From NCBI RefSeq assembly GCF_005848555.1, contig NZ_CP040518.1:1-64000 (forward strand): a stretch of DNA of 64,000 nt. The letters run 5' to 3'. A program made the translations under genes and the position numbers. The DNA is from Blautia sp. SC05B48 (GTDB taxonomy: Bacteria > Bacillota > Clostridia > Lachnospirales > Lachnospiraceae). The notes below the pieces were generated by a model that was not told where the DNA came from, made no database searches, and was given only the letters and a program-made list of their open reading frames with translations. Shown here one piece after another: positions 5,544 through 39,553 of this stretch; positions within the stretch are counted from its first letter, which is position 1, and every line of letters begins with the position of its first letter.

Positions 5544-6218
5544 TTATTCTGCGCCGTACTGGTCATAATATGCATCAATGGCAGCTTTCAGCTTATCATC
5601 GATCACAACACGGCCTTTGTATTCTTTGTTGTAGAGATGCTCAACAACCTCTGCCATAGTTACAATAGCTGTAGTCTGAAGACCGTAGGTTTCCTCGATC
5701 TCTTTGAGCGCACTCTTTGTTCCCTGGCCACGTTCCATACGGTCAACAGAAACCACAAGGCCTATCGGATTTACATCTCCCTGTGCTTTGATGATCGGAA
5801 GTGTTTCTTTAATGGATGTTCCTGCGGTCGTAACATCCTCAATGATCACTACCTTATCCCCATCCTGGATCGGGCTGCCAAGAAGAATTCCTTTATCTCC
5901 GTGGTCTTTCACTTCTTTACGGTTGGAACAGTAACGGATATCCTTTCCGTACATTTCACTGATCTCCATAGTTGCTGCTACAGAAAGCGGAATTCCTTTG
6001 TATGCCGGTCCAAACAGCACATCAAAATCCAGTCCGAACTTGCTTTCTATCGCTTTTGCATAATACTGTCCCAGCTTGCGAAGCTGCGCACCGGTACGGT
6101 AAAATCCTGTATTTACAAAAAATGGTGTCTTTCTTCCTGATTTCGTAGTAAAATCTCCAAATTTCAGGACATTACAGTCAATCATAAATTCAATAAATTC
6201 CTGCTTATACTGTTCCAT
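5544..6218 (-). CDS. pyrE: Orotate phosphoribosyltransferase
   Basis: 224 residues; joins orotate and PRPP to make OMP. The PRPP-binding signature VVIIEDVTTAGTSI lies near residues 121-134, and the loop with basic residues (CSNRKEVKDHGDKG) precedes it. The start at 6218 has GGAGGATTAGATAA upstream. A 139-bp gap separates it from pyrD, longer than the other gaps in the cluster. I saw no convincing terminator there. Confidence 0.96.
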   Translation of the reverse strand: MEQYKQEFIEFMIDCNVLKFGDFTTKSGRKTPFFVNTGFYRTGAQLRKLGQYYAKAIESKFGLDFDVLFGPAYKGIPLSVAATMEISEMYGKDIRYCSNRKEVKDHGDKGILLGSPIQDGDKVVIIEDVTTAGTSIKETLPIIKAQGDVNPIGLVVSVDRMERGQGTKSALKEIEETYGLQTTAIVTMAEVVEHLYNKEYKGRVVIDDKLKAAIDAYYDQYGAE

Positions 6219-6357
6219 TTATCTAATCCTCCATGTTTTTCATATATACGACAAACCCAGAATCCACACTCTGCTGCAATTCCAGTGTAAAATCCCTTTA
6301 TTTATCCTGTTAATTCTAACATATGAACAACAGAATTGCAAATACGGCAATCCTCCG

Positions 6358-28869: not shown

Positions 28870-28888
28870 TAACAGGCTTTAACTTGTT

Positions 28889-31741
28889 TCATCCTATATA
28901 TTTTGCGATGACAGATATTAAAATACTCAGATCAACCGGCTTTGCAATATGGTCATTCATTCCGGCTGCAACAGCATCCCGCTTATCTTCTTCAAATGCA
29001 TTTGCCGTCATTGCAATGATCGGTATACACGCTTTATCCTTATCTGGCAAGTGTCTGATTTCCTGTGTTGCTTTATAACCATTCATTTGGGGCATTTGTA
29101 TATCCATGAGGATCATATCATATGTTCTTGCCGGCATTTTTGTTATCCTGTTTACACACTGAATGCCATCCTCCACACGTTCAACCTTAAGACCGGCACG
29201 CTCAAGTATTGCTTCTGCAATCTCTGCATTCAGATCATTGTCCTCTGCCAAAAGGATATTCCTGCCTTCAAGGATTTCACTGGCTGTTCCCGAGCTTTCA
29301 TCGTGTTTTTTCACATAATAGCTTTCATCCGCTATCCTGTGTTTTAATGTTACAGTAAAGGTGCTGCCCTTTCCAGGCTCACTCTCCACATCTATTGTTC
29401 CGCCGAGCTGATCAACATATTTCTTTACGATTGACATTCCCAATCCGCTTCCTGTGATTTTGCTCTTTGTAGTGTTTCGCTCACGCGTGAATGCGTCAAA
29501 AATCTTTGTCAGATAATCCTGGCTCATACCGATTCCGGTATCGCTCACCCTGGTCCTTACCATCATGTACCCGGGCTCATCACATACTAATTCGTCTATG
29601 TTTACCATAACAGAACCACCGGATGGAGTATATTTTATGGCATTGCTCAGGATATTGGCAAATATTTCTTTTACCTTGGTAGTATCTGTCAGTATATGTT
29701 CATGCTCTACATTTATTGTGTAATGAAGTGCAATATTCTTTTTCTTTGCTTCATCATCAAATATTTCAAATAAAGTCTGCCGAATATCTTCAATCCGGCC
29801 ATAGTTCTCATCAATTTCCATCTTTCCGCTCTCAATCCGGGCCATATCAAGTACATTATTTATGATAGACAGAAGAAGATTTCCTGACTGCCGCAATTTT
29901 TCCAGATGATCTGAAGTTTCAGGCAGATCCTTTCCTTTTAGTTCTTCCTCCATAAGCTGTGCATAACCCAGAATTGCATTCATAGGAGTACGGATGTCAT
30001 GAGACATATTGTTAAGAAAACGAGTCTTTGCCAGACTGGCATCCTCTGCTTTTTTCAAAGCGATTTCCAGTTTGTCATTAAGTTTTTTTGTATTCTTTGC
30101 CGCAAGCTTTGCGACAGCTTCTGCTTTCTTTGCCTTCCGCAAAAGTACGAGGATAATACCAATGATAGTGAGTACAGAAAGTCCTGCTGTAACAAAAAAA
30201 GCGAGCATATTGTCTTTTATAAAGTCCAAAAATGTTACTTTATCTGCAGTACTGTCATAGATAGCAAGTGCACTTGTAAGCATGTCAGACGGCATAGCCT
30301 TTATAGTTTTATTCAGTATTGACAAAAGGCTTCCCTCTCCACCTCTTACAGCAAAGCATGCCTCCATTGTTTTTGTAAGTGGAACACTCTTGAAGTTTTG
30401 ACTGTTATCATATATCAGCGCCTGGCTTGCTCCCATGAGGAAACAGTCTGCTTTTTCTTGGATGACCATATCTGCTGCATTGTCAAGCGAATCACAATCT
30501 ACGATCTTCCATTCGGGATAGCTGAATGCAATATGCTGTTTTAAGGCATATTTTTCCTTTGGCACAGCTACAGTATACACCTTATTTTCATCAAATTTTT
30601 TCTCATCGGTTACGGCCATCAAACTGTAAGTCCAGGCTGTGTTTGTAAGTGCATATCCGTTTTGTTCTGCAAAATATGGATTCCTGCCGACATAAAAAAT
30701 CATGTCAATCTCACGGTTCTGCAGCGCCTGAATCATTTCATCATAATTATCATATGCCTGTATATTAAATTCCAGTGTCTGATTTCCCAGACAATCTTTG
30801 GCATAGGAGGTATATTCCGCCAGCATACCGGTAAGTTTTCCAGTCTCTTCATCCATGGAAAAGATTGCCGGATCATTGTTCAAAAATCCTATCCGGATAC
30901 CTCCATGCTCTTCCACCCAGATCTTTTCTTTCCCTGTAAGAACCTGAATATAATCAAGTGTAAAATACTTCTTATACAGATCTGTCTTAAAAAAGGGACT
31001 ATCCTGTTCCAGTTGACGCATAGCATAGTCCAGCTCCGTCTTGATATCGCTGCGTTCTTTATTTATTGCAAAATATATGCCTGATTTGCCAATCGTGGTA
31101 ACGGATGATATTCCCTGTTCAGACCAGATAGATTCCTCCAGAGATACAAAACAGTCGATCTCATGATTTGCTAATTTCTTTTCGACATCATCATTATTAT
31201 TCACATTTACATGTTCTGTATGTATGCCATTCTTATTTTCCCATTCTGTCAGCATGAGCTCAGGTTCTGTATCCATGAGCACACCTACACGTTTCCCATC
31301 CAGAGACTTGAGATCAGACATTCCAATATCCGTATCCGATAAATCAGCATAAAGGATATATTTTTCCTCCCCCATCGGTTCATCCGGGAAAAGCATCTTT
31401 TGTGCACGTTCATCGGTGTAAGAGATATCACCCATGATATCAATCTCACCATTTTCAAGCTTATCAAAACAGTCAGACCAGTCACATTTCACATACTCAA
31501 GTTTCCATCCGGTGTAACCTGCCAGAGCCTGCATGAGTTCGTATCCATATCCTCGTCTTACACCGTTTTTATCGACATAATTAAAGGTATCCTCAAATGA
31601 GCCGACACGGATGATCCGTGACTGCTTTTCATCGTTATTCGTCTCGGCAGCCCGGCATGGTACCGTCAATACCATCCATATTCCTAAAACCACAAATATA
31701 CCAGCACATAGTACGATTGATTTTTTTCTACTTTTATCCAT
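28889..31741 (-). CDS. BvgS-like hybrid histidine kinase with two solute-binding sensor domains
   Basis: 950 residues from the ATG at 31741 (AAAGGAAAT upstream). Order: hydrophobic signal/anchor (8-25), two type-3 solute-binding domains outside the membrane (about 38-255 and 270-490), transmembrane helix (about 500-525), coiled linker, HisKA with phospho-His in NNMSHDIRTPMNA (His 581), HATPase (DTGIGMS and GSGLGMS near 735-770), and a C-terminal receiver with DMILMDIQMP (Asp 880). The tandem flytrap layout is that of BvgS/EvgS and suggests sensing of amino acids or similar solutes. No Hpt domain is present in the protein; a free Hpt is encoded 6.5 kb upstream. Last gene of the signalling locus. 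Confidence 0.92.
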   Translation of the reverse strand: MDKSRKKSIVLCAGIFVVLGIWMVLTVPCRAAETNNDEKQSRIIRVGSFEDTFNYVDKNGVRRGYGYELMQALAGYTGWKLEYVKCDWSDCFDKLENGEIDIMGDISYTDERAQKMLFPDEPMGEEKYILYADLSDTDIGMSDLKSLDGKRVGVLMDTEPELMLTEWENKNGIHTEHVNVNNNDDVEKKLANHEIDCFVSLEESIWSEQGISSVTTIGKSGIYFAINKERSDIKTELDYAMRQLEQDSPFFKTDLYKKYFTLDYIQVLTGKEKIWVEEHGGIRIGFLNNDPAIFSMDEETGKLTGMLAEYTSYAKDCLGNQTLEFNIQAYDNYDEMIQALQNREIDMIFYVGRNPYFAEQNGYALTNTAWTYSLMAVTDEKKFDENKVYTVAVPKEKYALKQHIAFSYPEWKIVDCDSLDNAADMVIQEKADCFLMGASQALIYDNSQNFKSVPLTKTMEACFAVRGGEGSLLSILNKTIKAMPSDMLTSALAIYDSTADKVTFLDFIKDNMLAFFVTAGLSVLTIIGIILVLLRKAKKAEAVAKLAAKNTKKLNDKLEIALKKAEDASLAKTRFLNNMSHDIRTPMNAILGYAQLMEEELKGKDLPETSDHLEKLRQSGNLLLSIINNVLDMARIESGKMEIDENYGRIEDIRQTLFEIFDDEAKKKNIALHYTINVEHEHILTDTTKVKEIFANILSNAIKYTPSGGSVMVNIDELVCDEPGYMMVRTRVSDTGIGMSQDYLTKIFDAFTRERNTTKSKITGSGLGMSIVKKYVDQLGGTIDVESEPGKGSTFTVTLKHRIADESYYVKKHDESSGTASEILEGRNILLAEDNDLNAEIAEAILERAGLKVERVEDGIQCVNRITKMPARTYDMILMDIQMPQMNGYKATQEIRHLPDKDKACIPIIAMTANAFEEDKRDAVAAGMNDHIAKPVDLSILISVIAKYIG

Positions 31742-31790
31742 ATTTTTTATTTCCTTTATTTGTGTGGTTTTTCTGATACTCCGAACACCT
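31731..31790. repeat. Duplicated leader, copy A
   Basis: This 60-bp stretch, covering the first codons and upstream region of the BvgS-like kinase gene, matches 38111-38170 at 52 of 60 positions. The first 29 bases are identical and the matches continue through the non-coding part. See copy B. Confidence 0.85.
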
Positions 31791-34731
31791 AATCCAGGTT
31801 CTTCTGCAGGATGCTGATCAATTCCTCTATGACAATTGGTTTGGACAGGAACCCATCCATACCACATTTCAGTGCTTTCTTTCTGTCCTCATCAAAGGCA
31901 TTGGCAGTCATGGCAAGAATAGTAATTCCTGCCAGCGCCGGATCATCCAGCGCACGGATCTGTTTCGTGGCCTCATATCCGTTCATTACAGGCATCTGCA
32001 CATCCATCAGCACAAGATCATAATTACCCGGTGTAGAATTTCGGACTTTCTGCACTGCCTCGACACCATTTTCGGCAGTATCAACCAGGAATCCATATTC
32101 ATTAAGGATTTCCACAGCAATTTCGCTGTTCAGTTCGTTGTCTTCCACAAGCAGTATACATCTGCCCCTGAAATCCGAATCTACTGACGGAAGGATTGTA
32201 TCCTCTGCCAGCTTCTGGCCGATAGCACTCATCAAGGTATTTCTGATATCTGACATGAACATTGGTTTTGCACAGAAAGCAGTCACTCCGGCCGCCCTGG
32301 CTTCCACTTCGATATCTGACCAGTCATATGCAGTCAGGATAATGATTGGCGTATCATCGCCGAGGCTGCGGATCTGGCGGGTAACTTCAATGCCATTCAT
32401 ATCCGGCAGACGCCAGTCGATGATATAAGCATGGAACGCATCTCCCAGTTCCATAGACTGCCGTGCACGTAGAACAGCTTCCTTGCCGGAAAGTGTCCAT
32501 TCCGAACGCATTCCAACCCTCACAAGCATTTTTGTCACGCTGTCACAGGTATTAAAATCGTCGTCTACAACTAATGCTTTAAGTCCTTCCAGTTCTGCGA
32601 TCTTCTCTATACGTTGATGCTCAGACTGAATCCGAAATGGCAGACGAACAATAAATTCAGTACCTTTTCCCTGTTCTGTATGAACCTCAATGGTACCGCC
32701 CATCATATTCACAATGTTCTTGGTAATGGCCATACCAAGCCCTGTGCCCTGGGTCCTGCTGACAGTGGAAGTCCGCTCTCTCTCAAAGGGAGAAAATATC
32801 TTCTTCACAAATTCCTGACTCATGCCAATTCCGTTATCCTTTACCCGGATTTCGTACAGTCCACTGCCTTTCTGTGTCCCAGGACACTGTCTGATCCGGA
32901 CAGAGACGGTTCCTCCGGCTGGTGTAAACTTGACTGCATTAGACAAAAGATTCAGCAGTATCTGGTTCAGTCGCGTCTTGTCACAATAAACATCCTCATT
33001 GGTAACATCCATGGCATCCATATAAAGTTCCAGCTGCTTCGCATGGATCTGCCCACTGATGATCGTCTTCAGGTCATGAAGTACATCTGACAGACTGACC
33101 TCTGTTTCTTCCAGATGGATCTTTCCGCTCTCAATCCGGCTCATATCCAGGATATCGTTGATCAGTGAAAGCAAATGGTTACTGGAGGAAAGGATCTTAC
33201 CCAGATAATCCCTGACTCTTTTCTTATCATCAATATTACTTACAGCCAGTGTCGTAAAGCCGATGATCGCATTCATTGGCGTCCGGATATCGTGAGACAT
33301 ATTGGAAAGGAAATTACTCTTAGCCCTGTTTGCTGTCTCCGCAGCACGTACTGCCTCAGAAAGTGCCTGATTCATATTCCTGTCAGAGGTACGGTCCGAC
33401 ATAACCAGAATATATTTCTTCTTCCGGTTCACCTCACTGCCCATTGCCACAATATGAAACCAACGCCGTTCTCCTGTTTTCTGATGAACATATTCAAAAT
33501 CCCATTCCTTCTGTTCCGAAGTCTGGATTCCCTCCAGATAATTCTTCTTCGGATTCTTAGAATCCCGTGGATGCAGTTTTCCCAGAACATAAATATCCTT
33601 CCGGATCTGCTCTACCGTAAATCCCAACAGTTTTTCCACATTCGGGCTGACATAATCTGCCTCATATGTTTTGGCATCCAGCATCAGGAAAACATCATCC
33701 ACATTCATTGACAGCTTTTGAAACAGCTCATCCCTGTACAGGATCTCTGTATCTTTTCTCCTGAGACTTGCCCTGCTTTTTTGAATGATAAGGCTGATAA
33801 AAAAGGCGGCAATACAGAGCACGATCATGCCAACAAGAAGCATTGTACTACGCTGCAGGCTATTCATACTGGCATTGACAATATCCGCCTGGACAAGTCC
33901 CAGAAACATCCAGTCCTGGATATCTGATTTTTCATAGACCAGATAGTAGCTCCTTCCATCCAGATTCACCAGCATCGCATCGGTACGTCCTGCTTTAAAC
34001 TTTTCCGAAAGCTTATTGATCTCTTTTTCAGACATATCGGAATTCTCTCTCAGAACACCGAAGAAATTATACACATTCCCCCATGACTCAAAAGAATGAT
34101 CGACCACAACACGGCCATCCGGATGAACAATAAAACTCTGGGCATTTCCATTAAAAGCAGAAATATCCAGTACATCTATGATATCAGAGTTTTCATAAGC
34201 AATGGCAATCGCATCATATTCAAATCCCTGATAAATTCCATGAGCCCTGGGTGTAGCAAAAACAAGTAGCTGGGATTTTCCGGGAACTGCTGCATTTGCT
34301 ATCACATCATTTCCCTGCCGGATCTCCTCTTCAATATTTTCCTGTAATCCAAGATACCCGGTTTCGCCTGTTATCACCTTATAGTTCCCGTCAGCTGACA
34401 GAAAATAAAATTCTAAAAATCCTGCATCTTCCTGCGCTTTCTTTATATAATCACGAATTTCTTCTTCACTGGCGGTATTCTGCAGATTCTCACCCCACAT
34501 ATGAAGATAGGTCAGGTTCTTATCTGTCAGTTCTCTCAGCATATTATCAGACTGATGAAAAACCTCCGTCAGATGAGATACACTTTCCTCATAAATAGTT
34601 TTCGACACAAATCCAAAATATTGGAAAACCATCAAAGCAATTCCCACCAAAACAGCTATAAAGACAGCTGCCTTTAATTGTTTTCTCCTGACAGGCTTCT
34701 TTCTATCTGTATTATGATTCTTAATATCCAT
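31789..34731 (-). CDS. Cache/PAS hybrid histidine kinase with two receiver domains
   Basis: 980 residues from the ATG at 34731, whose ribosome binding site GAGGTG lies in the end of the upstream gene; a GTG at 34740 is also in frame. Order: transmembrane helix (about 18-40), extracellular dCache-like domain (about 41-295), second helix (about 300-322), PAS (about 340-455, with RRWFHIV), HisKA with SNMSHDIRTPMNA (His 480), HATPase (KDNGIGMS, GTGLGMA), receiver 1 (IIDWRLPDMNG, Asp 772) and receiver 2 (VLMDVQMPVMNG, Asp 910). Receiver 1 has Trp after the phospho-Asp. Stop-start overlap with the lipoprotein gene implies coupled synthesis and probably a shared stimulus. Confidence 0.92.
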   Translation of the reverse strand: MDIKNHNTDRKKPVRRKQLKAAVFIAVLVGIALMVFQYFGFVSKTIYEESVSHLTEVFHQSDNMLRELTDKNLTYLHMWGENLQNTASEEEIRDYIKKAQEDAGFLEFYFLSADGNYKVITGETGYLGLQENIEEEIRQGNDVIANAAVPGKSQLLVFATPRAHGIYQGFEYDAIAIAYENSDIIDVLDISAFNGNAQSFIVHPDGRVVVDHSFESWGNVYNFFGVLRENSDMSEKEINKLSEKFKAGRTDAMLVNLDGRSYYLVYEKSDIQDWMFLGLVQADIVNASMNSLQRSTMLLVGMIVLCIAAFFISLIIQKSRASLRRKDTEILYRDELFQKLSMNVDDVFLMLDAKTYEADYVSPNVEKLLGFTVEQIRKDIYVLGKLHPRDSKNPKKNYLEGIQTSEQKEWDFEYVHQKTGERRWFHIVAMGSEVNRKKKYILVMSDRTSDRNMNQALSEAVRAAETANRAKSNFLSNMSHDIRTPMNAIIGFTTLAVSNIDDKKRVRDYLGKILSSSNHLLSLINDILDMSRIESGKIHLEETEVSLSDVLHDLKTIISGQIHAKQLELYMDAMDVTNEDVYCDKTRLNQILLNLLSNAVKFTPAGGTVSVRIRQCPGTQKGSGLYEIRVKDNGIGMSQEFVKKIFSPFERERTSTVSRTQGTGLGMAITKNIVNMMGGTIEVHTEQGKGTEFIVRLPFRIQSEHQRIEKIAELEGLKALVVDDDFNTCDSVTKMLVRVGMRSEWTLSGKEAVLRARQSMELGDAFHAYIIDWRLPDMNGIEVTRQIRSLGDDTPIIILTAYDWSDIEVEARAAGVTAFCAKPMFMSDIRNTLMSAIGQKLAEDTILPSVDSDFRGRCILLVEDNELNSEIAVEILNEYGFLVDTAENGVEAVQKVRNSTPGNYDLVLMDVQMPVMNGYEATKQIRALDDPALAGITILAMTANAFDEDRKKALKCGMDGFLSKPIVIEELISILQKNLD

Positions 34732-34736
34732 TCTTC

Positions 34737-36587
34737 TCACCTCAGAGTCATATAATCTTCAGGTTCTGCAAGAATGGCATCACGATCTGAAACATATCCT
34801 GTCCAGGTATCTTTCACAGTGGTATCTCCTCCATCAAACACAATATTCTCATCTGCCGGATAAGCCTCCATGTATTTTGGTGTCGCAAGACAGGTTACCG
34901 TGAAAGTATCCTCATCCTGAATTTGTTTTCCGCCCGTTGTAACTTTGCTCAATGAGTAACCATCTTCTGTTTCCTTGATTTCCACAGAAATACCACTGAC
35001 CACCGGCAGAGAGCCACGGTTAAACGGATTAAAGCCTCCCTCATAGCCTTCTACAAAGTTTTTAACTATCTCTTTCAGTTCAGCACCGCTCATCTTGCTG
35101 CTGTAAGCTGCCAGACCATTTGGCATGATCATATCACCTGCCATTTTTTCTGTATAACCGGCTTTCAGCACATTTCCGGTAAAGCTGTTTCCGGTTGCGA
35201 TCAGTACATCCGTCCCATAGATGCCGCGCAGGGTGTTAGCCATAACAGAATAGGCTTCATTGCCTCCACCGGTATGGAAGCGATTGGAATAAGTTTTCTT
35301 TGAATCCAGCACAATATTCTCAGAAGTGGATTTTTTTTCAAGAAGCTGGGAATTAAATGACTGATAAGCCTGCTCTGCATCATATTCTCCTGAGATCATC
35401 TTAGAAACCACATCCTTGGAAACAGAGAAAAAGTCATTTGACGCAATACGGATATACATGTGGTTTTCCTCTATCACAGGTTTCACATCTTTCATATATT
35501 CCGTAAGATGGATATCCACATCCTGACTGTAGCTTAACAGATCCTGTCCATCACTAATGATCCGGTTCTGCGCATCCTCCGAAAGCATTGTGTTCAGTAC
35601 CTTCATTGCTTTCTTTCGACGTGTCTCATCCTGTGTCAGATTGCGGTTTAAAGCCACCTGGAAATATGGTGTAGTCATAATCCACTTTTCACCGTTTTCC
35701 TGAAAGAATGGAAGAAACGTTGTGTTAATACCCTGATCCTGAAACATTTTTACACTGGCAGAGCTGCCAAAGTACATGGCAAGTCTGTTACTTTGATACA
35801 TCTCAACTATATCATCATAAGTCATGTTCAGATCATCCTGGCTAAGCCCTGTATCCTGGATGAACTGTTTCATACGTTCAAAAGCCCCCGGCCAGACGGA
35901 ACTGTCCAGACCTTCTCTCTCTGTATTATCCGGGCCACTGTAGGTAGTACGCCACTTACGTCCGGCCACAGAAGACAACTCTGATGCAGACAGCCCCTGC
36001 AACATCTCCATACAGGTATAATCATAATAATAATCTGCCGTAAACCCGCAAATCCCCACTTTGTCAAATTCCTGGCAGGCAGAGACAAAGCTTTCGTAAT
36101 CTGTCGGAAGAGGGATATCATATTTTTCAAAAAGGTCTTTGTTCACTACAAAACCATGTGCATCCGCACACACGGGAAGCCAGTTTACGCTTCCATCCTC
36201 ATTCATAAAATTGCTGAGGTATGTATCATAGACAGCCCCTGCCGCATTTGTTGTGGAAAGATCCATCAAACTGTCTTTCAGAGGATTTGCATCATGCAGT
36301 GAAAAACGACAGCAGGTTATAATATCCGGCAATCCATCATTTTCCTTAAGGAACTTGTAGAAATCCAGATCATTATTCCCTACTACAAATTCAACATTGA
36401 TATCCGGGAGCTGTTCCTGGATGTATGGTGCATATTTTTCATACAGGTTTGTGCTCCACAAATACACCGTGATCGTATCTGCATCTTCTTTTTCCGCGCT
36501 CTTCCCGCCACAGCCTGACAAAAGTGATATAACTGCCACCATCACCAGGAACACCGGCAAAACTTTGTTCCATTTTTTCTTTTTCAT
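34737..36587 (-). CDS. Lipoprotein: solute-binding domain fused to 5'-nucleotidase C-terminal domain
   Basis: 616 residues from the ATG at 36587 (AAGGAGGATCCCA). A lipobox LSGC puts the lipidated Cys at 26, so the protein is anchored outside the membrane. Residues about 40-420 resemble family-1 extracellular solute-binding proteins (TITVYLWSTN, GLPDIITC, AMYFGSSA). Residues about 430-600 resemble the substrate-binding C-terminal domain of 5'-nucleotidases (EAYSVMANTLRGIYGTDV, IATGNSFTGNVLKAGYT, KMSGAELKEIVKNF), but the metallophosphatase domain is absent. No ABC permease genes are nearby. With the kinase gene overlapping its stop, a role as ligand-binding co-sensor is more likely than transport; this is inference. 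Confidence 0.8.
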   Translation of the reverse strand: MKKKKWNKVLPVFLVMVAVISLLSGCGGKSAEKEDADTITVYLWSTNLYEKYAPYIQEQLPDINVEFVVGNNDLDFYKFLKENDGLPDIITCCRFSLHDANPLKDSLMDLSTTNAAGAVYDTYLSNFMNEDGSVNWLPVCADAHGFVVNKDLFEKYDIPLPTDYESFVSACQEFDKVGICGFTADYYYDYTCMEMLQGLSASELSSVAGRKWRTTYSGPDNTEREGLDSSVWPGAFERMKQFIQDTGLSQDDLNMTYDDIVEMYQSNRLAMYFGSSASVKMFQDQGINTTFLPFFQENGEKWIMTTPYFQVALNRNLTQDETRRKKAMKVLNTMLSEDAQNRIISDGQDLLSYSQDVDIHLTEYMKDVKPVIEENHMYIRIASNDFFSVSKDVVSKMISGEYDAEQAYQSFNSQLLEKKSTSENIVLDSKKTYSNRFHTGGGNEAYSVMANTLRGIYGTDVLIATGNSFTGNVLKAGYTEKMAGDMIMPNGLAAYSSKMSGAELKEIVKNFVEGYEGGFNPFNRGSLPVVSGISVEIKETEDGYSLSKVTTGGKQIQDEDTFTVTCLATPKYMEAYPADENIVFDGGDTTVKDTWTGYVSDRDAILAEPEDYMTLR

Positions 36588-36621
36588 TGGGATCCTCCTT
36601 CTGAGCCTCCTTTGCATTTTT

Positions 36622-38121
36622 CTATTTTACAATATTAAAATATCCAACGACCCCGATGTATCCATCCTTCTTTAAAGGCGACCACAATGTATGCAACTTC
36701 AGTTTATACATTTGGCGGACATTCTCCACCGTTGCTTTTATCTGCACAGAGATTTCTTTATTTTGTACAGATGTCTGATGTAATAAAGCCTGAATATGAT
36801 GAACATCTTCTTCATTTACTCCGAATTCTTTGAACAGATTGAAATTCGGATTATTTCTCTGACATAATATCTGCTGCTTTCCGTTTAATATAGTCAGCTG
36901 ACCTGAAATTGTATTGTACTCAATTGAATTCATGCCACTGTTCGATTTGAAGAAATCGAGTTTTTCCTTCATGACCCTGACAACATTCTGTGAATAATTA
37001 TGATTCGGTAAAGATCTGTCGCTGAGTATCTCATTTGAAAGTCTCTGTACTTCATGGTAATAGCTAGTATCATCCATCTCTTTATCAATCATTTTTGAAA
37101 GCTGAAGACTCAGTTCTTTCAGACACATAAGGAGGATGGGGTTAAATTGTCCACATTGCCCATCCAGGATCATTTGAATCGCTGTGTCATGATCAAATGC
37201 TTTCTTATAACATCTTTCACTTGTAAGTGCGTCATAAACATCGACAATCGACACCACCTGTGCGGAGATTGGTATTTCTTCTCCTTTCAGGCCATCCGGA
37301 TAGCCTTTTCCATCCCATCTTTCATGATGCCATCTGCAGATTTCCCATGAAGCACGTACCAATGAATTGTCTTTTGGGAAATGCATATCCCGGATCATAT
37401 CTGCACCAAGCTCACTATGAGTTTTCATAATCTTGAATTCTTCATCGGTAAGTCTGCCGGGTTTGTTCAGAATTTCTTCCGAAATACGGATCTTACCAAT
37501 ATCATGAAGAGAAGATGCTGTTGTGATCAAAGAAATATCTGCCTCTGTCATAGGATAAGCATCTGTTATTTTTACCAGTTGTCTCAGCATCATTTCCGTT
37601 GCTGTTTTAATATGCAGGATGTGTTCTCTGCTCTCACTGTTACGTGATCCCAATACATTACTCAGAATCCGGATCATAATATTATTATTTTCTTCTTTTT
37701 CGTAAACCTGATCATAAACCACATTGATCAGATGCTTTTGCTTCATATAGAGTCCAAGGGTATTCTGAACTCTTTTCTTTACAATCACAGAATCAAACGG
37801 TCGTGTGATATAATCCGTGATTCCCAGCTCATATGCCTTACGCATCGTATCAACAGCATCTTCAGAAGATATCATGATTACCGGAGTTTCATCTATACAC
37901 CGACTTTGGTTCATCCATTTCAGAACTTCAAAACCATTCATCTGTGGCATATTGATATCTAAAAGCATCAGATCGATTCCCGGATTTTCTCCCATAATCT
38001 GAATTGCCTGATTTCCATTTTCAGCTTCCAGGTAATTATAAGTTTCTCTGAGAATCTCCTTCAACATATCCCTGTTAAATTCTGAATCGTCTACGATCAG
38101 GATCTTTTGTCTTTTATCCAT
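36622..38121 (-). CDS. Response regulator with HD-GYP c-di-GMP phosphodiesterase domain and PAS-like C-terminus
   Basis: 499 residues. Receiver (5-125): acidic pair Asp 11/12, phospho-Asp 55 in LLDINMPQMNG, but the usual Lys after beta-5 is Arg 107 (DYITRPF). HD-GYP (about 145-335): HDIGK with His 206-Asp 207, then HHERWDGKGYP with GYP at 273-275 and DVYDALTS, all intact, so hydrolysis of c-di-GMP is expected. The final 160 residues end like a PAS domain (LHTLWSPLKKDGYIGVVGYF). It lies between the free Hpt gene and the lipoprotein gene and is the likely output of the relay. A c-di-GMP riboswitch heads the locus. Confidence 0.92.
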   Translation of the reverse strand: MDKRQKILIVDDSEFNRDMLKEILRETYNYLEAENGNQAIQIMGENPGIDLMLLDINMPQMNGFEVLKWMNQSRCIDETPVIMISSEDAVDTMRKAYELGITDYITRPFDSVIVKKRVQNTLGLYMKQKHLINVVYDQVYEKEENNNIMIRILSNVLGSRNSESREHILHIKTATEMMLRQLVKITDAYPMTEADISLITTASSLHDIGKIRISEEILNKPGRLTDEEFKIMKTHSELGADMIRDMHFPKDNSLVRASWEICRWHHERWDGKGYPDGLKGEEIPISAQVVSIVDVYDALTSERCYKKAFDHDTAIQMILDGQCGQFNPILLMCLKELSLQLSKMIDKEMDDTSYYHEVQRLSNEILSDRSLPNHNYSQNVVRVMKEKLDFFKSNSGMNSIEYNTISGQLTILNGKQQILCQRNNPNFNLFKEFGVNEEDVHHIQALLHQTSVQNKEISVQIKATVENVRQMYKLKLHTLWSPLKKDGYIGVVGYFNIVK

Positions 38122-38170
38122 ATTTTTTATTTCCTTTATCCATGTGGGTTTTATGATATTCCGGACACCC
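38111..38170. repeat. Duplicated leader, copy B
   Basis: Matches 31731-31790 at 52 of 60 positions, including the ribosome binding site, the poly-T/A block and 40 bp of non-coding DNA upstream of the HD-GYP regulator gene. Both genes start with Met-Asp-Lys. The coding sequences then differ completely, so this is a duplicated control region and not a gene duplication. Confidence 0.85.
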
Positions 38171-38200
38171 GGTCATAAACAGAAAGTCGTGTCGCATCAC

Positions 38201-38560
38201 TTAATTCGACAGTCCCTTCTTTATTTCTTCAATCATCATTTCATATACTTCTGTTACTTTTTCCATTGCCTCCGATATCCCCGGCTGCGCTCCGGTTCTA
38301 TCTCTCAAAAGTTCTGTTAACTCATTACTAACCTCATACAGACGGTCAAAAGAAAGATTCTGACAAACCCCTTTCAATGTGTGTGCACTGCGGAAAGCAT
38401 CTTCATAATTTCTATTCTTCAATGCCAGTTTTAACTGCGGGTAACTCTGATCCTCAAGGAACTTTAATGTAAATTTCCGAATCAGTGCTTCGCTTCGAAG
38501 GCGTCCTAAAACATCTTCATAATTTCCTCCGATAGCTTCATAGCATTCCTGTATTGTCAT
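38201..38560 (-). CDS. Free histidine phosphotransfer (Hpt) protein
   Basis: 119 residues, a single four-helix Hpt domain. The phosphorylatable His is His 60 in RSAHTLKGVCQNLSF, the standard Hpt motif, with helix-forming sequence on both sides. Free Hpt proteins shuttle phosphate between the receiver of a hybrid kinase and that of a response regulator. Both hybrid kinases of this locus end in receivers and lack an Hpt domain, and the HD-GYP regulator has a receiver, so this protein completes the relay. Confidence 0.9.
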   Translation of the reverse strand: MTIQECYEAIGGNYEDVLGRLRSEALIRKFTLKFLEDQSYPQLKLALKNRNYEDAFRSAHTLKGVCQNLSFDRLYEVSNELTELLRDRTGAQPGISEAMEKVTEVYEMMIEEIKKGLSN

Positions 38561-38607
38561 AATTTTGTCCTCCTATTATGTTTCACTGCTTATTTATCAT
38601 TGCTACA

Positions 38608-38814
38608 TCAATTACATTCCACCAATTTATGAATTACTTTTATCAGTAATCCCAGATCAACAGGCTTAACAATATGTTCATCCATCCCTGCTTTTTTTGC
38701 TCTTATTCTGTCCTCCGTGAATGCATTTGCTGTCATTGCAATGATCGGTATTGTCTTTGCAACTTCATAACCATTCATTACCGGCATCATAATGTCCATA
38801 AGAATGACTTTCGA
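38608..38814 (-). pseudogene. Remnant of a receiver domain, probably of a lost hybrid kinase
   Basis: Only the C-terminal half of a receiver survives, from KVILMDIMMPVMNGYEV to the end. An in-frame stop (38815-38817) precedes it. It lacks the acidic pair and first strands, and about a dozen residues are missing between MNGYEVAK and TIPIIAMTANAF compared with the receiver of the BvgS-like kinase at 28889. The closest visible relative is that kinase (shared MTANAF and HIxKPVDLxxLI). The break point abuts a dispersed hairpin repeat. It stands where the first gene controlled by the riboswitch would be expected. Confidence 0.8.
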
Positions 38815-38820
38815 TCACAG

Positions 38821-38856
38821 CGGATATTCGCAATCCGCTTCGCTGCTTGTTCATAA
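38821..38856. repeat. Dispersed hairpin repeat, copy 1
   Basis: 36 bp starting CGGATATTCGCAATCCGC; matches 44262-44297 at 32 of 36 positions. It contains the inverted repeat GCGGAT/ATCCGC. It sits between the riboswitch terminator and the receiver remnant, four bases from the truncation point. Confidence 0.75.
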
Positions 38857-38870
38857 CCGAATAACACCAT

Positions 38871-38897
38871 AAAAAAGCACCGTCTCACAGACAGTGC
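38871..38897 (-). terminator. Expression-platform terminator of the c-di-GMP riboswitch
   Basis: On the minus strand GCACTGTCT-GTG-AGACGGTGC (one G-U) followed by six T residues. It begins 8 nt after the aptamer and ends about 60 bp before the receiver remnant. Ligand binding presumably alters formation of this hairpin; whether c-di-GMP turns expression on or off is not settled by inspection. Confidence 0.85.
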
Positions 38898-38904
38898 ACG
38901 TCAT

Positions 38905-38980
38905 TTCATGCAACTGGCTGCCATTTTACAGGCCCTGTAGCTTTGCGTCCCAGATTTTCATCTGGTTTGCCGATCATCCT
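38905..38980 (-). ncRNA. c-di-GMP-I (GEMM-I) riboswitch
   Basis: The minus strand shows the GEMM-I core in order: GGCAAACC, a stem closed by a GAAA tetraloop (AGAT-GAAA-ATCT), GGGACGCAAAGC, GGGCCT as tetraloop-receptor partner, then AATGG and AGCC leading to the second stem. Spacing matches the known aptamer. It has a promoter upstream and a terminator directly downstream. It controls, at least in part, the locus containing the HD-GYP phosphodiesterase. Confidence 0.93.
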
Positions 38981-39018
38981 TATTATAGCTTTTACACGTA
39001 TACCAAAAAACTGGTCTT

Positions 39019-39047
39019 ATTATACTATAGCGCTCTACTGTACACAA
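39019..39047 (-). promoter_or_regulatory. Promoter of the riboswitch transcript
   Basis: TTGTGT (39042-39047), 17 bp, TATAAT (39019-39024) on the minus strand; start near 39012, about 32 nt before the aptamer. A second TATAAT at 38982-38987 lies just before the aptamer but has no good -35 box. The DNA from 39048 to 39126 shows nothing else. Confidence 0.7.
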
Positions 39048-39126
39048 GAAAAATATTACCGTTTCAACACCTGAAAACAAAAAAGGAGTGCACTCCAGAA
39101 CAGAGAAAAATACTTTATCCCCACGA

Positions 39127-39170
39127 AAAAAATCCCCGCTGTCTGACTGAAATCAGACAACAGGGATTTT
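39127..39170 (-). terminator. Terminator of ridA
   Basis: Near-perfect stem built on AAATCCC...GTCTGA / TCAGAC...GGGATTT (39131-39168) with T runs at the minus-strand 3' end. Confidence 0.85.
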
Positions 39171-39181
39171 TTATCAAATCA

Positions 39182-39553
39182 TCAGATTGCTGCGATCACT
39201 TCTACCTCGCAGAGAACGTTCTTTGGCAGTGTCTTGACTGCAACACAGGAACGTGCAGGTTTATTTACGAAATATTTGGCATATACTTCATTAAATGCCG
39301 CAAAATCGTTCATATCTGCAAGGAAGCATACTGTCTTGACTGCATTCTCATAGCTGGAACCGGCAGCTTCCAGAACTGCTCCGAGATTCTTCATAACACG
39401 GTCAGCCTGCTCCTCGATGGTTGTTCCAACTACCTCTCCGGTTGCCGGATCCACCGGGATCTGACCGGATGTGTAAAGCGTATCTCCATGGATAATAGCC
39501 TGGGAGTATGGTCCGATTGCTGCAGGTGCTTTGTCTGTATGTACTGTCTTCAT
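39182..39553 (-). CDS. ridA: RidA-family enamine/imine deaminase
   Basis: 123 residues, small trimeric enzyme that hydrolyses reactive enamines such as 2-aminoacrylate from amino acid dehydratases. Family marks: IGPYSQAI near residues 13-20, TSGQIPVDPATGEVVG near 29-44, and the C-terminal RSCVAVKTLPKNVLCEVEVIA with the substrate-binding Arg near 103. Start has AAAGGAG upstream. It has its own promoter and terminator. Confidence 0.95.
   Translation of the reverse strand: MKTVHTDKAPAAIGPYSQAIIHGDTLYTSGQIPVDPATGEVVGTTIEEQADRVMKNLGAVLEAAGSSYENAVKTVCFLADMNDFAAFNEVYAKYFVNKPARSCVAVKTLPKNVLCEVEVIAAI

Follow-up and report, generated by a model that had tools for sequence, protein, structure and literature searches.

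The LuxP–LuxQ and TorT–TorS systems pair a hybrid histidine kinase with a periplasmic binding protein that presents the ligand to it. Both differ from the locus reported here in the families of their solute-binding proteins and in their ectodomains, and to our knowledge neither involves a fusion protein or a c-di-GMP riboswitch; the core of the Cache kinase described below scores best against the TorS and LuxQ models, far under their cut-offs. In the three-component system CuaD–CuaS–CuaR of Ruminiclostridium cellulolyticum, the solute-binding protein CuaD binds the kinase CuaS and sharpens sugar sensing, and its gene adjoins the sensor kinase gene, as at our locus (PMC10384115). No nucleotidase-type domain is described for that system, and its target is an uptake operon (PMC10384115), whereas our locus has a Cache hybrid kinase, Hpt and HD-GYP neighbors, and a c-di-GMP riboswitch. 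In NspS–MbaA of Vibrio and Sinorhizobium, the solute-binding protein NspS senses polyamines and is coupled to a membrane protein by which c-di-GMP is altered (PMC9993111); the partner in our locus is instead a hybrid kinase. The closest parallel to NspS–MbaA is a distant homologue of our locus, L057, in which the lipoprotein gene stands beside that of a Cache-GGDEF-EAL protein. We know of no C-terminal nucleotidase-type domain in NspS. Finally, CmrRST of Clostridioides difficile resembles our locus in that a c-di-GMP riboswitch governs a two-component system, but its switch is of class II and of the ON type, and no solute-binding partner is described for it (PMC11477304).

We analyzed the first 64,000 nucleotides of contig NZ_CP040518.1 from Blautia sp. 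SC05B48 (hereafter the window), which encode a lipoprotein that fuses a solute-binding domain to a 5'-nucleotidase C-terminal-type domain. Solute-binding proteins that feed sensor kinases are known as a general kind; this one is set apart by the fusion, by the constancy of the Cache partner, by its predicted riboswitch control, and by its probable lateral spread. Literature searches, in which subscription journals were thinly covered, found no paper on a fusion of this kind and none on c-di-GMP riboswitches that precede kinases of this type in Lachnospiraceae. The features of the locus, in the order of transcription within an encompassing block, are as follows.

28876..39187, no strand assigned: 10.3-kb block, missing in the congener G534, where the flanks are joined
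38906..38981, minus: c-di-GMP-I riboswitch aptamer in the operon leader (RF01051, 59.8 bits against a gathering score of 35, E = 9.1e-11)
38877..38897, minus: predicted intrinsic terminator serving as expression platform, GCACTGTCTGTGAGACGGTGC-TTTTTT, 9 pairs
38605..38805, minus: receiver-domain remnant between riboswitch and Hpt gene, in frame from MDIMMPVMNGYEVAK to IVKPVDLGLLIKVIHKLVECN and a stop
38201..38560, minus: Hpt phosphotransfer protein, 119 aa (PF01627, E = 3.3e-10; AHTLKG motif)
36622..38121, minus: REC-HD-GYP response regulator, predicted c-di-GMP phosphodiesterase, 499 aa
34737..36587, minus: gene of the fusion lipoprotein, 616 aa, ATG at 36587; the subject of this report
36510..36587, minus: signal peptide and lipobox LLSGC26 of the fusion, from its sequence
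35343..36479, minus: solute-binding domain of the fusion, about residues 37–415 (PF13416/PF01547, Foldseek)
34740..35315, minus: 5'-nucleotidase C-terminal-type domain of the fusion, about residues 425–616, nucleotide pocket lost (profile, fold, and pocket alignment)
31789..34740, minus: Cache hybrid histidine kinase (dCache, PAS, HisKA, HATPase, two receivers)
28889..31741, minus: SBP_bac_3 (SBP3) hybrid histidine kinase, likely start ATG 31741, 47 nt past the previous stop

The five genes thus run, all on the minus strand, in the order Hpt, REC-HD-GYP, fusion, Cache hybrid kinase, and SBP3 hybrid kinase. The REC-HD-GYP protein matches Response_reg (E = 6.2e-26) and HD_5 (E = 9.2e-28), and its HD and HHExxDGxGYP motifs are intact, the latter reading HHERWDGKGYP at residue 265. 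In the hybrid kinase that follows the fusion, two transmembrane segments flank the Cache region, which gives a match to Pfam dCache_1 below the cut-off. The preliminary description had the fusion stop codon overlapping the start of this kinase gene. This holds, with an overlap of 4 nt, if translation begins at GTG 34740; it does not hold for ATG 34730, which is well placed after AGGTGAG, leaves a gap of 6 nt, and may be the true start. The receiver remnant is 97% identical over 32 nt to the receiver of the SBP3 kinase and is probably the leftover of a deleted or decayed hybrid-kinase gene. In relatives (L037 and L038), an SBP3 gene and a kinase lie upstream of the fusion.

The domain architecture of the fusion was confirmed by profile searches and structure prediction. 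A Shine–Dalgarno-like GGAGG lies just 5' of its start codon, and the lipobox cysteine, Cys26, is invariant across 18 homologues. Within the first 345 residues, Pfam reports SBP_bac_8 (PF13416; E = 1.9e-11, 44.8 bits against a cut-off of 27) and SBP_bac_1 (PF01547; E = 4.6e-10, 40.4 bits against 26), the profile of a family-1-type solute-binding protein. The C-terminal match to 5_nucleotid_C (PF02872) covers residues 448–565 at E = 1.7e-4 and 22.2 bits, just under the curated threshold of 23.6. No metallophosphatase domain was found in the fusion in the Pfam scan, and no NCBIfam model matched it. An AlphaFold2 model of the full-length protein (pLDDT 87, pTM 0.84) shows a predicted two-lobed solute-binding fold. 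The nearest folds to the N-terminal domain in Foldseek are family-1 and oligosaccharide-binding proteins (3quf, E = 2e-21, TM score 0.80 on the target), so that a sugar or oligosaccharide appears the likeliest ligand class for this domain on structural grounds.

The Foldseek top 50 for the full-length model consisted of solute-binding proteins only, many of them maltose-binding protein fusions, and the C-terminal domain was therefore modeled alone. This model (pLDDT 90.5) retrieved 5'-nucleotidases, NadN, YunD, SoxB, and CD73 as its top 50 matches and nothing else. A profile built from 21 such C-terminal domains and run against PDB sequences found UshA, NadN, and the Thermus thermophilus 5'-nucleotidase with E values of 3e-5 to 3e-11. 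A fusion paralogue from this genome reaches 28.6 bits for PF02872, over the 23.6 cut-off, and distant full-length homologues of the same architecture score 95–107 bits (up to 106.6). When the genome was searched with PF02872 at E ≤ 0.001, the paralogue and one 5'-nucleotidase of metallophosphatase length were recovered; the window copy was not reported, in line with its sub-threshold score. Given the scores of the paralogue and distant homologues, the PDB profile matches, and the predicted fold, we take the C-terminal assignment to be real and the weak score of the window copy not to be due to chance. The preliminary description, which read the first 400 or so residues as a family-1 solute-binding protein, the last 180 as 5'-nucleotidase-like, and the metallophosphatase half as missing, is thereby upheld. 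Of the analyses it proposed, structure prediction returned both folds as claimed, and the profile search agreed for PF01547 and PF13416, with PF02872 falling just short; it had named a C-terminus lacking PF02872 or a 5'-nucleotidase fold as evidence against itself, and that fold is present in the model.

The C-terminal domain thus resembles those of UshA, CD73, and NadN in fold and distantly in sequence; in contrast to these enzymes, the fusion has no metallophosphatase domain and has lost the substrate residues. We rejected a reading of the fusion as a nucleotidase, as the catalytic metallophosphatase domain is absent. The pocket was compared with that of Escherichia coli UshA, whose residue identities were checked in its sequence and in which R379, R410, F429, and N431 contact the phosphates and base of the nucleotide. 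The alignment places R379 opposite a gap in the window protein and the rest of its clade, with Thr at the position of R410, Pro at that of F429, and Leu at that of N431, and the GGDGY loop is missing; the UshA pocket set R375, R379, R410, F429, and N431 is absent from this clade. The fold and an S-G core motif are retained despite this loss. Window-clade proteins therefore probably no longer bind nucleotides in the manner of UshA, as judged from the alignment, and we rejected a nucleotide pocket in the window protein on the loss of these residues. A distant clade (L103, L106, L108, L110, and L112) keeps R379, R410, and G458, with an aromatic residue at the position of F429 and Asn or Asp at that of N431. 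Because the pocket residues survive there, nucleotide binding may hold for that clade.

We then considered the genes around the fusions. Homologues are present in 18 of 250 genomes of the family, and profile searches found further ones in other genomes of the order, class, and phylum, the order-level tally taking in plain solute-binding proteins as well. The neighbor census covered 66 fusion genes with readable surroundings, called as longest open reading frames and classified with home-made kinase, permease, and Cache profiles, so that errors of a few genes are possible; because some loci overlap, second counts were made after near-identical copies were dropped, leaving 39 distinct fusions at 80% identity. 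A kinase or GGDEF/EAL gene directly adjoins the fusion in 60 of 66 cases (33 of the 39 distinct ones), and the neighbor is a Cache-type protein in 60/66. Every kinase encoded immediately downstream of a fusion has a Cache-like ectodomain (51/51, by a profile iterated on these same loci), as against 4 of 35 kinases elsewhere in the loci, and the gap between the two genes runs from −38 to +57 nt with a median of −4 nt. No permease gene was found within three genes of any of the 66 fusions, whereas 23 of 25 plain solute-binding genes from the same searches have permeases nearby; the fusion operons thus lack the permease genes of an ABC importer. The preliminary description had reported no permease at this locus, had asked whether the fusion co-occurs with Cache kinases, and had considered homologues regularly beside ABC permeases as evidence against it. 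The census bears it out on each point, and no permease adjoins the fusion in the window.

At L057 (9517–13725), a distant fusion adjoins a dCache-GGDEF-EAL protein and has no kinase partner. Because of this case, we conclude that the constant partner is a Cache membrane protein rather than the kinase core. HD-GYP genes occur in some fusion clusters only, and many clusters have another kinase instead. Two or three fusion genes stand in tandem or around one Cache kinase at L050, L053, L097, and L154, which suggests that several ligand-binding lipoproteins may serve one kinase. At L037 (7009–9973), and repeatedly at equivalent places in other loci, the fusion is immediately preceded by a separate SBP_bac_3 gene overlapping that of a hybrid kinase; this is a second kind of solute-binding protein–kinase pair in these clusters.

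The predicted terminator starts 8 nt past the end of the riboswitch aptamer and ends in six T, and the 3' strand of the aptamer can pair with the terminator 5' arm to give a competing antiterminator (−9.0 kcal/mol). In C. difficile, class-I c-di-GMP switches work as OFF switches at the level of transcription (PMC11477304). Terminator and antiterminator in the window have the layout of such a switch, and we predict an OFF direction here as well. Other Rfam matches in the leader (rli41, mir-255, and others) lay below their gathering scores and were taken as chance. Across 44 genomes, 20 of 57 fusions are preceded on their own strand, at a distance of up to 5 kb, by a c-di-GMP-I riboswitch, compared with 0 in a mirror-image control. 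The Blautia genome contains four such riboswitches. Each of its two fusion operons has one in front, and a third lies ahead of the gene for a hybrid kinase of 1068 aa, a type of kinase that neighbors fusions in relatives. The fourth (L202, G000:C1:1994000-2008000, at about 6150–6237) lies upstream of a run of overlapping open frames, followed by a rho gene. With 14 GGDEF hits in the genome, c-di-GMP signaling is present. Scans of the distant-clade loci and of several close riboswitch-less loci against all of Rfam returned only tRNAs. The scanned distant fusions and some close ones lack the riboswitch, so that control by c-di-GMP characterizes one part of the fusion family.

With moderate confidence, we propose that the lipoprotein is a ligand-binding co-receptor for the Cache hybrid kinase within a c-di-GMP circuit and not part of a transporter. 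Anchored outside the membrane through Cys26, it would use its solute-binding domain to capture a small ligand, probably a sugar or oligosaccharide. It would then dock on the Cache ectodomain of the hybrid kinase whose gene comes next and alter the activity of that kinase. The 5'-nucleotidase-type domain would be a former enzyme lobe, retained for docking or for a second act of recognition. Phosphate would pass from His to Asp to Hpt to Asp, reaching the REC-HD-GYP protein of the operon, which is predicted to degrade c-di-GMP; the second kinase of the operon could equally feed this protein. High c-di-GMP would turn the operon off through the leader riboswitch and low c-di-GMP would leave it on, perhaps forming a positive loop in which low c-di-GMP yields more phosphodiesterase and hence still lower c-di-GMP. 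The binding of CuaS by CuaD (PMC10384115) is a precedent for the proposed mechanism. Counting against the model, adjacency of such genes does not always denote a functional link, as neighboring solute-binding protein–kinase gene pairs in Pseudomonas aeruginosa showed no interaction (PMC11113362).

The preliminary description likewise saw a co-sensor that presents ligand to the Cache kinase, with two ligands, for example a sugar for the solute-binding domain and a nucleotide or nucleoside for the C-terminal one; the riboswitch, the Hpt and HD-GYP genes, and the lateral transfer do not figure in it. Gene pairing agrees with a role beside the Cache kinase, but a nucleotide or nucleoside as second ligand finds no support. 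The C-terminal domain does have the fold of nucleotide-binding lobes, and the distant clade keeps R379, R410, G458, the aromatic residue at 429, and Asn or Asp at 431, yet throughout the window clade the pocket is lost through the gap and substitutions described above and the GGDGY loop is gone. We regard such a two-ligand sensor as improbable. A narrower form of the co-receptor model confines all sensing to the solute-binding domain and makes the C-terminal domain purely structural, a docking platform or spacer. The retention of fold and S-G core motif alongside a lost pocket and the constancy of the Cache-protein pairing across the family both fit this form, although a remodeled pocket might hold an unrelated ligand, and we give it slightly less than an even chance.

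A further alternative is that the fusion is an orphan solute-binding protein for an ABC transporter encoded elsewhere and that its adjacency to a kinase is incidental. Orphan solute-binding proteins sharing distant permeases do occur, and the N-terminal fold is nearest to transporter-linked oligosaccharide-binding proteins. Against this, the permease control (0/66 fusions versus 23/25 plain solute-binding genes) and the Cache ectodomains of all 51 immediately downstream kinases, at gaps of −38 to +57 nt, make the orphan transporter component very improbable, and it was rejected on the permease control. The sign of the effect on the kinase could also be the reverse of activation by the loaded protein, with the ligand-free lipoprotein holding the kinase off (or on) and ligand releasing it. 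A ligand-free solute-binding protein controls the kinase in LuxP–LuxQ, but nothing in the sequence settles the sign, and we consider such a decoy or antagonist unlikely.

Under the co-receptor model, a kind of protein usually read as a transporter component is probably a receptor, as the gene context indicates, and it offers a possible route for outside nutrients into c-di-GMP signaling in such common commensals of the gut as Blautia, Fusicatenibacter, Anaerobutyricum, Coprococcus, and relatives. A pocket kept in one clade and lost in another would form an evolutionary series from enzyme lobe to sensor part, and through its links to riboswitches the circuit can be tested directly. More broadly, and tentatively, the fusions may constitute an undescribed Clostridia-wide family of kinase co-receptors that recruited a nucleotidase lobe for docking or second sensing, one clade keeping nucleotide sensing and another having changed its ligand, and that travel in gut Lachnospiraceae as transferable cassettes, many of them riboswitch-gated.

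The 10.3-kb block has likely been transferred laterally, as comparisons among genomes suggest. In the congener G534 (L190), the equivalents of window positions 28875 and 39188 lie 67 nt apart, with the flanking genes joined. In G466 the block occurs at another site, with 88% DNA identity, and the copies of the flanking genes adjoin without it. Fusion copies in nine other genomes, mostly of other genera, are 82–89% identical to the window protein, while RpoB of those genomes is 77.5% to 93% identical; in a close relative, RpoB is 99.7% identical but the fusion just 89.3%. The block is apparently also absent from the joined site in G466 and G468. At its edge, about 47 nt (38819–38865) recur as copies of approximately 90% identity, many of them in congeners (more than 15 in G384), and this segment is a dispersed repeat.
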